Shown one piece after another: positions 17,988-29,392 of a stretch of DNA of 33,114 bases. This DNA comes from an uncultured bacterium (GTDB lineage Bacteria; Verrucomicrobiota; Kiritimatiellia; RFP12; UBA1067). The notes below the pieces were generated by a model that worked only from the letters and a program-made list of their open reading frames with translations, was not told the origin of the DNA and did no database searches. The position numbers and the translations under genes are program-made. Position 1 is the stretch's first letter. Every line of letters begins with the position of its first letter. Location of the stretch: assembly GCA_902779565.1 (NCBI GenBank), contig CACZCD010000014.1:1-33114 (forward strand), in the 5' to 3' direction.

Positions 17988-18009
17988 CTTCTTTCCTCCT
18001 TTTTCTAAA

Positions 18010-18106
18010 ACTACCAACTAGCAACTACCACTAGCAACTAACCACTAATCACTAACCACTAACCACTAGCAACTAGCCACTAATCACTAACCACTAGCCA
18101 CTAACC
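18010..18106. repeat. Heptanucleotide tandem repeat, consensus ACTARCC
   Basis: Fourteen consecutive copies (one 6 bp, the rest 7 bp) of ACTAACC, ACTAGCC, ACTAGCA, ACTAATC or ACTACC. The array fills the gap between the tannase-like gene and the regulator. It also supplies the last codons (Val-Ser-Gly) and TAG stop of the regulator, so it has overwritten that gene's 3' end. Confidence 0.95.
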
Positions 18107-18813
18107 ACCTCCCAATGTCCATTCTTATCCGCACCGACGCGCCGAATCTCCCCCGCCGTCTGAAGATCCTTCATCTTCCGTGCAATCCATCGAGGCGAAA
18201 CCTGCAATATCTCAGATAGCTCAATCTTCGTAATGAACGGATCCGCCCTTATGTTCTGCTTTATCTGTTCAGAAAGGGAATCGGAATTTCGAGTGCACTG
18301 AACAGAACCATCTGCGTGATTTACAGTGCACTCTTTTCCAGATAACGAAATGAATCTATCGGCCTTCACTCCATATTTAACAATTTCAGCAACCCGTTTT
18401 TGCAAGAAATCCTCAATCTTGTGAAGCCGGTCAACCGGAAGATTGTAATACTTATGCCGCTTGAAGCGAAATCCCTTTAGCTTTTCAAGTCGCTTCATCA
18501 TTCCTTGCGTAACACCACCGGAAAATCCAAGCCATCTCTCATACAAAGCGGGCATGATATGGCCGATGAACTTTCTCAAATCCGAAAACTCATCATGCCG
18601 TTGGCCGGGTCTATACAGGGCCAGAGAGAACAGTCCATAGCCATTGTCGAATATCGGCGCCGCGCACATCCAAAGCGTCTCATCGCTTGCGACACCCTGC
18701 ATCTCAAGCGGTAGGAACTTCCGCTCGGCGTCATTCACAGAGACAACGCGCACGCCTTGCGGCTCAACCCACTCGAATCGCAGCAGCTCCCTGTCTCTAT
18801 GCCTTAAAATCAT
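18094..18813 (-). CDS. Winged-helix DNA-binding regulator, N-terminal domain unknown
   Basis: A 239-residue protein. The last ~65 residues form a winged helix of the type found at the end of Fic/RecG-like regulators: SLSEQIKQNIRADPFITKIE, then SPRWIARKMKDLQTAGEIRR, GADKNGHWEV. The N-terminal ~120 residues (MILRHRDRELLRFEWVEPQG, then LPLEMQGVASDETLW and IPALYERWLGF-like segments) are not recognised; a distant likeness to HipA-type N-terminal regions is possible but unproven. The gene is more AT-rich than its neighbours. It starts at 18813 with its -10 element 6 nt upstream, so the mRNA is predicted leaderless. It leads the tannase-PHP-ceramidase-DASS cluster and may regulate it. The stop is inside the ACTARCC array. 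Confidence 0.8.
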   Translation of the reverse strand: MILRHRDRELLRFEWVEPQGVRVVSVNDAERKFLPLEMQGVASDETLWMCAAPIFDNGYGLFSLALYRPGQRHDEFSDLRKFIGHIMPALYERWLGFSGGVTQGMMKRLEKLKGFRFKRHKYYNLPVDRLHKIEDFLQKRVAEIVKYGVKADRFISLSGKECTVNHADGSVQCTRNSDSLSEQIKQNIRADPFITKIELSEILQVSPRWIARKMKDLQTAGEIRRVGADKNGHWEVVSG

Positions 18814-24199: not shown

Positions 24200-26530
24200 T
24201 CAAAATCCTTTCATTACGCTCTCGGCACGACGGATGTAGGCATCCTGCTCGGTGCGCGAGAGGTCGTTCCAGCGGACGTTCCATCCGCACACGCGCACCT
24301 GCAGGTTCTCGTACTTCTCAGGATGCGCCTGCGCATCCTTCAGCTCCTCCGCGCTGAAGACGGTGAACTGGATCACGCTGCCGCCGTTCCTGTGGAAGAT
24401 CTGAACGAGCGTACGCATCGCCCGAAGGCCCTTCTCGCCAGAGCAGACGGACGGATGCAGCATCATGTCGAGCGGATAGTCAGCGGGCAGCTTCGTCACG
24501 TCGGACGCGGCAAGCGTATTGACGAGCGCCGTCGCGCCCTCCGTATCCACACCCATCGTCGGCGAGAGGTTCTTGCTCATCTCTTCGCCGGCCTTGCGCC
24601 CGTCCGGCGTCGCGCCCGTCTTGGCCCCGAGGTGGATGTACTGCCGCGCGCAGTGGCCGGACGCGAAGAACACGCCGCCCCGCGAATTGGGCTTGCCGTT
24701 GAGCTGGGCCGCGTACGTATCGATCAGCTCCGCGCCCAGCGCGTTCGCCTCCGGATCGTTGTTGCCCCATTTGCGCTTCGAGCGCAGCATCCGAAGACGC
24801 AACGGCTCATGCCCCTTCCAGTTCGCCGCCATCACTTTACCCAGTTCGGCAAGGGACATCTCCCGCTTCTCGAAAACGATTTCCTTGACGGCCAGCAACG
24901 CATCGACCGCCGTGCCGAGACCCGTGGCGAGGATGGACGAATTGTTTCCGCGCGGGCATCCGTTTGCGAAGCCGTCCCGGCGCGTCTTGAGCGCGTGCTC
25001 GGTGGAGAGCGTCATCAGGTTCGCGGGGTTGACCTCCGGCAGCACCTTCTCGAACTCAAAGGCGACCTTCCGGCACCGGTCGGTCACGTCGGCGAGGCGC
25101 CGGAGATATTCAGCCTTGAATGCGGCAAAGTCTCGGTAGGGCGCGTTATCCTTAACGCGCCGTTCGCCCGAACTTGCGGCGGCTTGAGGACAAGCCGCCC
25201 TACCATTCCTCGTTCCCCGTTCCCCATTCCCTGTTCCCCGTTCCCCATCCCCCGCGCATTCCGCGAGCATCTTTTCGATTGGCTTCAGGAAGTTGATGTG
25301 CCCCACGCCCGTACCGTTGACGCTGTCGCGGAGACCGAACTCGTAGCAGCCGCGCACAACCATCGTGCGGCAATCCTCGTCGCTCGCGCCAGACCATTTC
25401 TTGAGCGCACGCGCGGTCGGCTCCTCGCCGATGAAGGAAATGGAGCGATGGCGGCGCGCCATGTCGAGCATCTTGTCCCACGCCCAGTCCGGCGTATTCG
25501 GCGCGACCTTCACGAGGAACTTCGGCGTGGTGAGCGCACACGCGTCCATCACCTCGAGGATGATTTTCGAGACGTGGTTGAACGCGCTCGTACCGTCCGG
25601 ATTCGTGCCGCCGAATCCGACGGGCTGGTTCCAGTAGTTCGAGACGGACCCCCACTGCCAGAGGAAATGTTTCAACTGCTCCCGGAACTCGGTTTCCGTC
25701 GTGCGTCCGGCGGCAAGATCGGCTTCGTAGTACGGCGTGAGAAACACGTCCAGCTCCGTGAGAGACCGGCACTGGATGCCATCCAGGTGTTCCGAATAGA
25801 AGAAGTAGAGCCACACGAACATCATCACGTCATACGCCGTCTGCGGCGGTCCCTTGCGCAAACGCTCCAGGCAGGCGATTTCTTTTTTCAACCGTCCCCC
25901 GTTCCCCGTTCCCCGTTCCCTCTTCCTTCCTTGCGCGATGAAGCGGTCGAGACCCGCAAGCATCGCATCCATGGCAATCGCGAGTCCCTCGTAGAACGGA
26001 TCATCCTTCACGGCATACTTCGCCAACCGCGCCTTCAGACCCGGGAAGCCGAGCTTCAGGATGACGCGCCAGTCGGGGACGGAGTGGTCGAAGTCCTGCC
26101 ACATGTTCCAATCGCCGGCGGCATTGCCCGCCCCCCATTCCTTCCGCACCCATTCGGGAAGCATCTTGGCGTTGACTTCCGCCGCGCGCTTGCGCTTCGT
26201 CTCGGCCCAAATCGGAAGCGACAGCCGATTCCAGACGGCGATCGCGGGGAACCAGTCGAACGGCGACACGTCAATGGACTGTTCGCGCACCTGTGCGGCA
26301 AAGCATTTCGCCTTCGTGATGCGCCACGATTCGCCAGCCGCCTTGCCCTGCTCGGCGATTTCCGCCAATCGCTTTGCAAGATCCTCCTGTCCCAGCCCCG
26401 TCGTCTTATCCGTCACATCCTGACGGAACTTGCGTCGCAGATAGGTATCGGTGTCCGTGATGTCCGCGACGTAGGGATCCCACCACGTCGTGTCGAGATA
26501 GCTCTTCTGCTTCGATCTGGACGCGGTCAT
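24200..26530 (-). CDS. Glycyl radical enzyme (pyruvate formate-lyase-like), substrate unknown
   Basis: A 776-residue glycyl radical enzyme. The radical site is the Gly749 motif RVCGWNVRWNDLS near the C-terminus (canonical RVSGY). The thiyl Cys and general base lie in VRGCYEFG: Cys395, Tyr396, Glu397. Dehydratases and lyases usually have GCVE here, so Tyr is unusual; it is not a true PFL (no Cys-Cys). Other family blocks are LDVFLTPYY, RWHRS-type MARRHRSISFIGEEP and TPDGRKAGE. No signal peptide is present. Two in-frame insertions are coded by repeats: residues ~202-216 and ~427-463, rich in GERGTGNG. Its ATG overlaps the activase stop (ATGA), and the HGSNAT-like gene follows by 9 nt. The reaction cannot be assigned. 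Confidence 0.92.
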   Translation of the reverse strand: MTASRSKQKSYLDTTWWDPYVADITDTDTYLRRKFRQDVTDKTTGLGQEDLAKRLAEIAEQGKAAGESWRITKAKCFAAQVREQSIDVSPFDWFPAIAVWNRLSLPIWAETKRKRAAEVNAKMLPEWVRKEWGAGNAAGDWNMWQDFDHSVPDWRVILKLGFPGLKARLAKYAVKDDPFYEGLAIAMDAMLAGLDRFIAQGRKRERGTGNGGRLKKEIACLERLRKGPPQTAYDVMMFVWLYFFYSEHLDGIQCRSLTELDVFLTPYYEADLAAGRTTETEFREQLKHFLWQWGSVSNYWNQPVGFGGTNPDGTSAFNHVSKIILEVMDACALTTPKFLVKVAPNTPDWAWDKMLDMARRHRSISFIGEEPTARALKKWSGASDEDCRTMVVRGCYEFGLRDSVNGTGVGHINFLKPIEKMLAECAGDGERGTGNGERGTRNGRAACPQAAASSGERRVKDNAPYRDFAAFKAEYLRRLADVTDRCRKVAFEFEKVLPEVNPANLMTLSTEHALKTRRDGFANGCPRGNNSSILATGLGTAVDALLAVKEIVFEKREMSLAELGKVMAANWKGHEPLRLRMLRSKRKWGNNDPEANALGAELIDTYAAQLNGKPNSRGGVFFASGHCARQYIHLGAKTGATPDGRKAGEEMSKNLSPTMGVDTEGATALVNTLAASDVTKLPADYPLDMMLHPSVCSGEKGLRAMRTLVQIFHRNGGSVIQFTVFSAEELKDAQAHPEKYENLQVRVCGWNVRWNDLSRTEQDAYIRRAESVMKGF
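25136..25203. repeat. Inverted pair of GTAG-type REP hairpins inside the glycyl radical enzyme gene
   Basis: Plus strand: GTAG (25136-25139), then GGCGCGTTA-TCCT-TAACGCGCC (25140-25161). Minus strand: GTAG (25203-25200), then GGCGGCTTG-TCCT-CAAGCCGCC (25199-25178). Both have perfect 9-bp stems and the same TCCT loop, head-to-head with a 16-bp spacer. GTAG before a hairpin is the hallmark of REP sequences mobilised by RAYT transposases, and the paired arrangement is BIME-like. No RAYT gene is in the window. Confidence 0.85.
25205..25253. repeat. Heptanucleotide tandem repeat (GTTCCCC-type) within coding sequence
   Basis: Seven exact-length heptads: ATTCCTC, GTTCCCC, GTTCCCC, ATTCCCT, GTTCCCC, GTTCCCC, ATCCCCC. 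The first base follows A-G-G-A-G-G-A, giving a 21-bp higher-order period. Because 21 is a multiple of three, it is translated as a repeating Gly-Glu-Arg-Gly-Thr-Gly-Asn type peptide. It starts 2 bp beyond the REP pair. Confidence 0.95.
25894..25921. repeat. Second GTTCCCC heptad array in the same gene
   Basis: Four heptads (GTCCCCC, GTTCCCC, GTTCCCC, GTTCCCT), coding for the ERGTGNGG stretch around residues 205-212 of the glycyl radical enzyme. It is the same repeat type and orientation as the array ~640 bp away. Confidence 0.9.
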
Positions 26531-27378
26531 GGCATCTCCTCTTTCGGCGGCATCGTATCCTTCAGACCAAGCGCAAGGTATTTCGATCGGGCGTAGTCAT
26601 AGTATTCAAGGTTGACGATCGACGATTCGGGGATGCCAATCGAATGGAGGTAGCGGTGACGGGCGGCGAGATCGTCTCCATCCGTACACCCCGGCACCGC
26701 GAGGCAGCGCACCTCCATCTTCGCCTTCGCCGCCACCAGCCGTTCGAGGTTCTTTCGGACGACCTTGTTGGAGACCCCCGTGTACTTCACATGCAGCGCG
26801 TCATCATCCGCCTTGTAGTCGGGCAGCCACATGTCGGTCACGGGCAGCAAGGCCTTAAGGGCGGCGGGCGGTGCGTAGAGCGACGTATCGAGACAGGTGT
26901 GGAGCCCAGCCGCCTTGAACGCCTTGAAGAGTTCCGCCGCCCATTCCCAGAAAAAGAGCGGTTCGCCGCCAGAAAGCGTCACGCCGCCGCCCGACTCGTC
27001 GTAGAACGGCTTGTCCTCTAACGCCTTGGCGACGATCTCGTCGATCGTCATCGGCTTGCCGTAGAGCTTCAGCGCCCGCGTCGGACACGTCGCCTCATCC
27101 ATTGTGCACTTCGCGCAATGCTTGCAGAGATGCTGGAAACGCGCCCACTGCGCTTCTGTCTGGATGGATTCGGGATTGTGGCACCAGATGCACTTCAAGG
27201 GACAGCCCTTCACGAAGAACGTCGTGCGGACTCCCGGTCCGTCGTAGATGGCCATCCGCTTCGTATCGAGCATCAGCGGCGTCTTCAGGGCACGGCCGCC
27301 CACGGTCACGGCCGCGACGAGACGCGGACCTCCCACCGCAAACGCGGCCGATGCCACCAAGAATTCCTTGCGCGTCAT
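26527..27378 (-). CDS. Glycyl radical enzyme activase (radical SAM) with a Tat-like N-terminal leader
   Basis: A 283-residue radical SAM activase that installs the glycyl radical on its partner. Features are IYDGPGVRTTFFVKGCP, the CX3CX2C cluster at Cys59/63/66 (CPLKCIWCHNPES), an inserted CKHCAKC...C motif (Cys85/88/91/98) for one further Fe-S cluster, and SGGGVTLSGGEPLF. The oddity is the first ~28 residues, MTRKEFLVASAAFAVGGPRL followed by VAA, a Tat-like leader almost identical to that of the tannase-like protein. Activases normally begin close to the IYDGPG segment and are cytoplasmic. GGAGG 7 nt upstream supports this start (27378); an open frame further upstream (27486) lacks support. 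Its stop overlaps the enzyme gene start as ATGA. Confidence 0.92.
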   Translation of the reverse strand: MTRKEFLVASAAFAVGGPRLVAAVTVGGRALKTPLMLDTKRMAIYDGPGVRTTFFVKGCPLKCIWCHNPESIQTEAQWARFQHLCKHCAKCTMDEATCPTRALKLYGKPMTIDEIVAKALEDKPFYDESGGGVTLSGGEPLFFWEWAAELFKAFKAAGLHTCLDTSLYAPPAALKALLPVTDMWLPDYKADDDALHVKYTGVSNKVVRKNLERLVAAKAKMEVRCLAVPGCTDGDDLAARHRYLHSIGIPESSIVNLEYYDYARSKYLALGLKDTMPPKEEMP

Positions 27379-27424
27379 TCCCGATCCTCCGTTGCAACCA
27401 TCACCAGACAAGAGCATCAACCTC

Positions 27425-29392
27425 CTACTTGATGCCGCCCGATCCTTCCGGGAACGGCACGGGGGTGCACGGCGTGCAGAGTTCACCGTTCTCGCAAATC
27501 GCCATCTGAACGGCCTTTGTGTACTTGTCGGCCTTCACGCCAATCCGTGCGACAATCCGGTTGGTTCCCTTTCGTACGGGAATCCGCATGCGGGATCTTC
27601 CGACCGGCAGTTTGGCGCCGTTCAGGAACACGGCGGCCTTGCCGTCGCACACGGCAATGTTGGTCAGCATCTCCACATTCGCCCCGGCGTCCGCCGCAAA
27701 CTGAAACGCGAAAACCGTTGCACCGGCCGGCGTGGCGGCCGCCGTCTCGGCCTTTGACATGCTACGGCCACCCGGCGTCACGAGATACCATGCACCAGAA
27801 GGATTGGCCGGAGGCGAAAGCCACTTCACGTCATCGCCCAACGGCGACAGCGGCCCCGTCTCCGCCGACAGCGCCATCAGCTTCCCGTCGTCAATCGTGG
27901 CCGCCGGCACGATCCCCGTCCAGCGCACAACGTCGCGCGGCGTCATTCTCTTCGGGACCTCCACCGTGGAAACCGTCCACAGGCGCGCCCGTTCATCGCC
28001 CTGCGAGAAGTCAAGGGAGGCGGCGTACAGTTCGCTTCCCGACGGATACACCATCTTCTCCGCCGCCCCACCATCGATCACGCGTTCGACACTCGAGCCC
28101 GCATCGACGGAGGTAATGAGGAACGTCCGGCGACGGTCGCTGAACTCAGGCGGCAGATGCACCACGCCGTAAACATCGCGCAACGCCACGGCGGAGCCAT
28201 TCCGGAACGTCACCGTCACCTTGCGCGCGGCAAGGTCCGGGACGACCTTCAGCGCCAGACCCGGCAGCTTTTCGCACATTCCATCCGCTCCGGCAAGCCC
28301 AACCTTCGCCACAGTGTGTCGCGAAGCGTCATGCGGAAGCGTCCACGTGCCGTTCGCGCCGCGCGCAAGCGGCTTGCCGCCACATTCGACGCCTGACGGC
28401 TCCTTTGAAAACGAGAGGGAAAGCGGTATCCCGTCACCCAACGCGGCCGGATCGAAACGGCGCACCACAAACACGGCGCGGCTTCCCGTCGCCGCCTGCC
28501 GCGCCACCGAACCGTTCAGCGCCGAATAGCGGTATGCCCCATATTCGTAGTCGTTCAGCTGCACCCAGTCGTCGCGCACACAGTGTTTCTTCAGCCACGC
28601 CTGCTGCTTGGCGTTCCCCGCATCGTCGCACCAGGAATGCGTTCCAAGGGTGATTCTGGGGGCTCGCGGTGACCGGGCCGCAACCGCCATCTGGGCCTTG
28701 AGCCCGGCTTGGAACCTGTCGTAGTTCGGATTCTTGTCATCGGCGGAAAAGCGGTTTGCCGGATACAGAAGATCGTCCGGGACGCCCACATCGGCGATGG
28801 GATTGTCGCCCGACACCCAAAGTCCGCACTCGGGGAGCATCTTCACGGCCAACGACTTGATCCGGCTATCCATCCACCTGTTCTGGTACCAGCCATACGG
28901 CGAGGCATACGAGACCACGGAATGGTCCGTATCGCACTCCAGATCGATCCGGCAGCGGAGGAACTGGGCGAACATCGCCTCCGGCGAGAGATCAAGGACG
29001 AACGGATGCGTCACCGTGTGGTTGCCGATGGCGTGACCGCGACGGATCAACTCCCGGATCCCCGCGATACGGAAACTCTGCGGGGCCTCGCGTCTCGTCC
29101 CGCTCACGATGTAGAACGCACCCTTGACGCCGATCTGCTCCAACATGGCGGCCTTGGCGAGATGGCGCGGATTCGTGTCGTCCCAGCGCGTGCCGAACGA
29201 ACACGCCGCGCCGCCGGGCAGCGATGCGATAACGGCTTGTGCGGCCGCGGCATCCGCCGGCGTCGCGAAGGTGGCCGTCACGGTCTGCGTGTATTCCGGG
29301 AATCCGAGGGGATTCTCCGCGAAGCATGCCGCCCCTGCAACCATCATCGTTCCGAGGGCAGCGAGCGCTTGGCGTTTGAAGGGTCTCTTCAT
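27425..29392 (-). CDS. Exported polysaccharide deacetylase-like (NodB/CE4) protein
   Basis: A 655-residue exported protein (signal ALAALGTMMVAGAACFA near residues 9-25). Residues ~60-290 are a NodB-type domain: the Asp pair appears as TRWDDTN (Asp71, Asp72) instead of TFDDG, the metal histidines as NHTVTH (His125, His129), and a late THSWCDD could supply the final His. The family removes N- or O-acetyl groups from glycans. The ~360-residue C-terminal part is beta-rich, with a likely carbohydrate-binding region at the end (FLNGAKLPVGRSRMRIPV). It follows the alpha-galactosidase gene by 16 bp and precedes the activase by 46 bp. Diverged motif 1 means activity should not be assumed. Confidence 0.85.
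   Translation of the reverse strand: MKRPFKRQALAALGTMMVAGAACFAENPLGFPEYTQTVTATFATPADAAAAQAVIASLPGGAACSFGTRWDDTNPRHLAKAAMLEQIGVKGAFYIVSGTRREAPQSFRIAGIRELIRRGHAIGNHTVTHPFVLDLSPEAMFAQFLRCRIDLECDTDHSVVSYASPYGWYQNRWMDSRIKSLAVKMLPECGLWVSGDNPIADVGVPDDLLYPANRFSADDKNPNYDRFQAGLKAQMAVAARSPRAPRITLGTHSWCDDAGNAKQQAWLKKHCVRDDWVQLNDYEYGAYRYSALNGSVARQAATGSRAVFVVRRFDPAALGDGIPLSLSFSKEPSGVECGGKPLARGANGTWTLPHDASRHTVAKVGLAGADGMCEKLPGLALKVVPDLAARKVTVTFRNGSAVALRDVYGVVHLPPEFSDRRRTFLITSVDAGSSVERVIDGGAAEKMVYPSGSELYAASLDFSQGDERARLWTVSTVEVPKRMTPRDVVRWTGIVPAATIDDGKLMALSAETGPLSPLGDDVKWLSPPANPSGAWYLVTPGGRSMSKAETAAATPAGATVFAFQFAADAGANVEMLTNIAVCDGKAAVFLNGAKLPVGRSRMRIPVRKGTNRIVARIGVKADKYTKAVQMAICENGELCTPCTPVPFPEGSGGIK

Follow-up and report, generated by a model that had tools for sequence, protein, structure and literature searches.

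The REPIN has been described as a unit of two inverted REPs, and the RAYT as a Y1/HUH transposase bordered by REPs (PMC3116915, PMC2817692). In the classical situation REPINs lie between genes and each RAYT gene is free-standing, with a start and a stop of its own, whereas the elements considered here lie within the frames of host genes. GTAG REPs within genes have been published for several bacteria (Di Nocera et al, 2013; PMC3733652); Opitutus terrae, a verrucomicrobium of the same superphylum as our bacterium, has the most of them. These GTAG palindromes, often in inverted pairs, lie in frame in genes such as uvrA and code for 20-30 residues; the paper is confined to REPs, and the text searched mentions neither RAYTs embedded in frame nor heptad arrays. 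Another parallel is offered by the Rickettsia palindromic elements (Ogata 2000, 2002, via PMC10969869), which are palindromic selfish DNA translated in unrelated proteins, but they belong to another sequence family, measure ~150 bp and are given no link to a RAYT there. Their likeness to the present insert is one of behaviour only. Cyanobacterial heptanucleotide STRR repeats are dispersed arrays of a 7-bp unit; the heptads found here differ in their unit, GTTCCCC, and in lying mostly in frame inside genes. Inteins are mobile coding DNA that occupies essential genes in frame and at tolerant sites, but no splicing domain was recognised in the RAYTs described below, so that a chimeric product is predicted for them. 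The literature searched, which included few subscription papers, yielded no description of RAYT genes in frame inside host genes, and it offered nothing closer for heptad arrays or embedded transposases. The main Y1 survey excluded unexpectedly long proteins as gene fusions or annotation errors (PMC6006769), and embedded RAYTs may therefore have been filtered out earlier. We regard the in-frame REPs as a fresh case of a known kind and the embedded RAYTs as the new part, whose novelty is likely, not certain.

The locus lies in the window, by which we mean the whole stretch of 33,114 nt that was analysed (contig CACZCD010000014.1 of an uncultured Kiritimatiellia gut bacterium). Its features are as follows.

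24200..26530, minus strand: host gene, a PFL-like glycyl radical enzyme (GRE) of 776 aa (ORF and Pfam)
25346-25348, minus strand: codon of the GRE active-site Cys395 (motif GC395YE)
24284-24286, minus strand: codon of the predicted radical Gly749 (conserved residue)
26527..27486, minus strand: GRE activase, radical SAM (NCBIfam TIGR02494, above cut-off)
25136-25161, plus strand: REP hairpin 1, with GTAG tag, 9-bp stem and TCCT loop, GTAGGGCGCGTTATCCTTAACGCGCC
25178-25203, minus strand: REP hairpin 2, the inverted partner, with a TCCT-type loop
25136-25203: REPIN-like unit of hairpins 1 and 2, 68 nt, GTAG..CTAC
25206-25254, no strand assigned: heptad array of seven GTTCCCC-type copies (Tandem Repeats Finder, 7.0 copies)
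25142..25252, minus strand: whole in-frame insert, residues 427-463, ~37 aa, missing in empty-site orthologues
25892-25920, no strand assigned: second heptad array, in frame, residues ~203-212 (Tandem Repeats Finder, 4.1 copies)

The ORF is free of stops across both heptad arrays, and the main array, read on the minus strand, translates to (GERGTGN)n; the predicted peptides of the insert include GTGNGER, AACPQAAASSGER and VKDNAPYR. An earlier note on this DNA had claimed that a REP pair and heptads lie in frame in a catalytic gene. This is borne out by the unbroken ORF, by hairpins that surpass shuffled sequences and by the ~37 residues added, whose numbering as 427-463 agrees with insert-free orthologues. 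Its placing of the insert just after the active-site loop is right as to position, the distance being ~32 residues beyond GC395YE; the second heptad array had been overlooked. The strict pattern GTAGGGCGNNNTNTCCTNA matches twice in the window, once at each hairpin, and never in 100 dinucleotide shuffles. The folding energy of the hairpin region as a single strand is -25.8 kcal/mol; shuffles average -13.5 kcal/mol (z = -5.4), and 0/200 of them do as well. RNA folding of the transcript region gave z = -1.2, which is not significant. The element shares with GTAG REPs the GTAG at both outer ends, the 9-bp stems, the 4-nt loop and the existence of dispersed copies. In the AlphaFold model of the window protein, for which 17 relatives were supplied, residues 429-462 have pLDDT < 50 and lie between helices 416-426 and 468-495, so that the insert looks like a disordered loop; the second heptad array lies where helix 178-207 turns into helix 212-226. 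The window also holds, at 18009-18108 between two minus-strand ORFs, an unrelated period-7 minisatellite (ACTAACC/ACTAGCC), an 18-mer of which has a single match among the loci examined (G006 L047:306-323).

The host protein matches PF02901 (PFL-like, 1.2e-57) and PF01228 (Gly_radical, 6e-20), and Cys395 and Gly749 show no variation across 18 relatives. It thus has what characterises a glycyl radical enzyme, namely both domains, the cysteine, the glycine and a nearby activase, and the adjoining activase supports the prediction that the gene encodes a working GRE. The fold resembles HypD, PflD and the diol dehydratases by structure match; the protein falls below every equivalog cut-off, and its substrate class is therefore left unnamed. 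In G006, three tandem GRE paralogues lie close to the orthologue of the window gene (L047).

Alignment with orthologues from related Kiritimatiellae, as the earlier note had advised, sets the insert borders at ~427/428 and 463/464, the reference being insert-free orthologues (e.g. L122, L126, L132, L133, G003). Several orthologues run from EKMLAEA through a few linker residues into the DFxxFK helix, where the window is ~37 residues longer; at the codon level the join falls between GGG GAT and CGA GAC TTT. Both GRE loops hold unrelated inserts in other species, each derived from that species' own repeats. At the 427-463 loop, one REP without a RAYT is present in G029 (at the DNA level) and in G040, which belongs to the genus of G036 (at the peptide level). 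In the G036 orthologue itself, a complete RAYT with a Y1_Tnp domain and the HUH motif PNHVH lies in the GRE frame at this loop, bordered on both sides by REP hairpins of GCGACGACGCCCTCGTCGTCGC type; this GRE spans two contigs that break within REPs and share an exact overlap of 55 nt. As judged from the alignments, the GRE loop 427-463 is a permissive site and a hotspot for inserts, and what enters it is lineage-specific repeat DNA, not conserved protein sequence. G006 carries heptads without REPs at the same site, from which we infer that the REP pair was probably added to a site that already held the heptads. The composite would then probably represent two events; the earlier note had taken it for a single element, although its reading of the composite as in-frame coding DNA stands.

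In the genome of the window it is the rule for REPs and heptads to lie within genes, and most of the copies sampled are in frame there. The strict REP pattern with a gap matches 11 times and a heptad triplet 267 times (overlaps counted), and neither has any match in the reversed control; the genome search for the GTAG hairpin proposed earlier thus found 11 strict copies. Inverted REP pairs of 56 nt occur at three further loci and one of 53 nt at another, so that, like a REPIN, inverted REPs with a short spacer are dispersed as a unit at unlinked loci. Of the 30 heptad arrays that the examined stretches contain, 16 or more fall within Pfam-bearing ORFs. The GERGTGN peptide is read in frame in carA, uvrA (twice), ileS (twice), gltB and a Glu/Gln-tRNA ligase, as well as in a NuoF-like protein, UxaC, an FGGY kinase and PfkB, and a GT2 gene likewise carries a heptad array. 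The REP peptide GRAACPQAA..ERRV(K/E)DNAPY is in frame in carB, two GH2 enzymes, a PD40 protein, a protein kinase and the GRE, and one REP unit in an apolipoprotein N-acyltransferase is read in another frame. The carB insert is missing in G010 and is replaced elsewhere by other inserts, the same pattern as in the GRE. The coding behaviour ascribed to the composite in the earlier note is therefore upheld, but an intragenic REP is neither rare in this genome nor without published precedent (PMC3733652). The idea that the length of the REP unit encodes frame compatibility was set aside: each of the five pairs has a length of 2 mod 3, but that length is identical in three of them and another pair is not within a long ORF, which is too little to decide on. 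As for the RAYT that had been expected, none of the relevant clade was found beside the window REP type (GTAGGGCG..TCCT) in its own assembly, a 322-contig MAG in which three weak Y1 matches (G000:C26, C251, C66) do not adjoin that REP type; the full RAYT at the G036 loop is the counterpart that was recovered. The missing gene is weak evidence since repeats break contigs in such a MAG, and the lack of a cognate RAYT in an incomplete assembly is the reason why we name the unit REPIN-like and not REPIN.

We propose, with considerable confidence, that RAYT-type single-strand insertion, followed by selection that keeps in-frame events in disordered loops, best accounts for these data. RAYTs are HUH transposases acting on single-stranded DNA, and insertion of the IS200/IS605 type leaves no target duplication. 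RAYT (HUH/Y1) transposases would thus move REPs as single-stranded DNA, host bases being neither added nor removed; most insertions into genes would be lost, and the survivors would be those that are in frame, stop-free and in permissive loops. The insert of the window would be what is left of two repeat families, both dispersed and non-autonomous, that entered a solvent-exposed GRE loop: first the GTTCCCC heptad array and then the GTAG REPs as a REPIN-like inverted pair. Its translation would give a disordered loop, tolerated by the enzyme. Against this model weigh the failure to find a RAYT beside the window REP type in its assembly, the low REP copy number, with ~11 strict copies in the genome, and the fact that slippage or recombination, and not transposition, could have spread the heptads.

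In the strongest competing explanation the insert is translated neutral ballast that in the case of the window owes its spread to replication slippage and recombination, and nothing to a transposase. The heptads are a classic slippage sequence and the cognate RAYT was not found in the assembly; yet the REP pairs keep a conserved design and length (53, 56, 56, 56 and 68 nt) at unlinked loci, and relatives possess RAYT genes bordered by their own REP hairpins, one of them at the GRE loop, which makes this explanation rather unlikely. A genuine protein loop, selected for its usefulness to the GRE and only incidentally resembling REPs, appears less probable again. The earlier note had held that unrelated DNA at the same loop of orthologues would point to such a protein loop. 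Judged by this the outcome is mixed: many orthologues do have some insert there, but these are lineage-specific repeats that differ wholly between species, and several orthologues are empty; moreover, the same DNA recurs in unrelated genes and the hairpins are far stronger than chance.

The insertion model with selection for frame receives a wider context from the RAYT genes of relatives. A profile (A1) was built from five sequences, the RAYT of G036 and four relatives. Searches with it covered the order, class and phylum as well as one more family, and many RAYT copies were found to sit in open frames of 600 to >2,000 residues. By hand count in one family, 33/85 RAYTs lie in frames >= 600 aa, as opposed to 0/79 copies of DDE_Tnp_1 in the same 79 genomes, whose longest frame is <= 553 residues. 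These open-frame counts were checked against host families in a subset of ~20. RAYTs stand between two halves of the same named host family in UxaC (L168, L169), FAD_binding_2 (L171, L172), an SNF2 helicase (L091), HsdR (L095), Eco57I-type enzymes (L170, L173), leuS (L258, L261, L262, L263), valS (L268), xseA (L252), metH (L259), ispG (L257), priA (L253, L256) and a B12 radical-SAM protein (L254). For some further loci the host match was verified for one side, upstream in L179 and L260 and downstream in L266; in the M28 peptidase (L097/L178) the insert is near the N-terminus and the verified side is the downstream one. Two cases were left out of the count: L096, where the frame of a DUF1016-type nuclease holds REP peptides together with a RAYT from a different clade, is apparently frameshifted, and in L167/L143 (DUF1156) the RAYT has its own stop and is not in frame on both sides. 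The embedded copies have the characters of RAYTs, that is, a Y1_Tnp domain with HxH and REP hairpins alongside: they match PF01797 and NF047646, two of them above the NF047646 cut-off, PxHxH is present in 10/11 with A-N-H-V-H seen by eye in L095, and REP hairpins occur at 8/9 of the loci scanned, L091 being without any 8-bp stem.

The leuS product, LeuRS, is essential. The RAYT-bearing copy is the sole leuS in G504, G506, G508 and G530, and in L258, L261, L262 and L263 the RAYT occupies position ~360-370 of the leuS profile; leuS is clear in the 2175 aa frame of L258, but that frame (L258:2300-8824) extends ~1,100 residues beyond the LeuS match. The tolerance of RAYT inserts of ~180-390 residues in leuS and the GRE would be explained if the insert were untranslated, through ribosome bypass or through RNA or protein splicing (introns, byps, inteins). 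In that case, however, the frame need not be kept, yet in all 11 inserts tested the host frame has 0 stops, with 1-15 stops in each of the other five frames, and no self-splicing feature was noticed; we hold this possibility to be very remote. An assembly chimera or a frameshifted pseudogene is the least credible reading, despite the MAG data and the G036 contigs that break in REPs, since the same kind of insert recurs in many independent assemblies, including the single-contig genome G558 (ispG) and the 7-contig genome G199 (xseA, priA), and host families match on either side of the inserts.

The same filter that retains in-frame REPs may also have let whole RAYT genes without their own stop codon settle in frame, the transposase then being made as part of the host polypeptide. 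In none of 17 embedded RAYTs is there, within 40 codons, a start codon preceded by a Shine-Dalgarno-like motif; this scoring covered embedded copies alone, and the missing start signal can be taken as no more than a hint. The RAYT embedded in the UxaC pair has a dN/dS of 0.08 at dS ~1.2 against 0.23 for the host, which suggests that the RAYT protein is under constraint while embedded. It can be hypothesised, with somewhat better than even confidence, that RAYTs with an in-frame lifestyle exist phylum-wide: these would have no stop and apparently no start signal of their own, reside in essential genes such as leuS, reach expression solely as an additional domain within a host enzyme and see their loops re-invaded by different RAYTs, the REP pair of the window being the non-autonomous counterpart. 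Mobile DNA in coding sequence is expected to be lost to selection; here it is found in frame in housekeeping enzymes genome-wide, and a transposase is carried inside the sole leucyl-tRNA synthetase of four species. Such cases open to testing the questions of how REPs and RAYTs persist, why RAYTs look vertically inherited, and how selfish DNA becomes a source of new protein loops and domains.

On the RAYT tree, the embedded copies fall on about seven separate branches. Identity at the leuS site is 48-58% among the RAYTs, whose synonymous sites are mostly saturated, and 69-86% among the LeuS hosts. The RAYTs have thus diverged further than the proteins that carry them, and for this reason a single ancestral insertion was given up as the simplest reading; the pattern suggests repeated insertion or replacement at this loop. 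Eco57I-type methylases from three families of the order (L170, L173, L174) carry closely related RAYTs in the same loop; between L170 and the other two, identity is 69-76% for the RAYTs but 39-45% for the hosts, a hint that homing or transfer took place. In L176 and L179 the two halves of the RAYT occur in swapped order within one open frame, with REP peptides between them.
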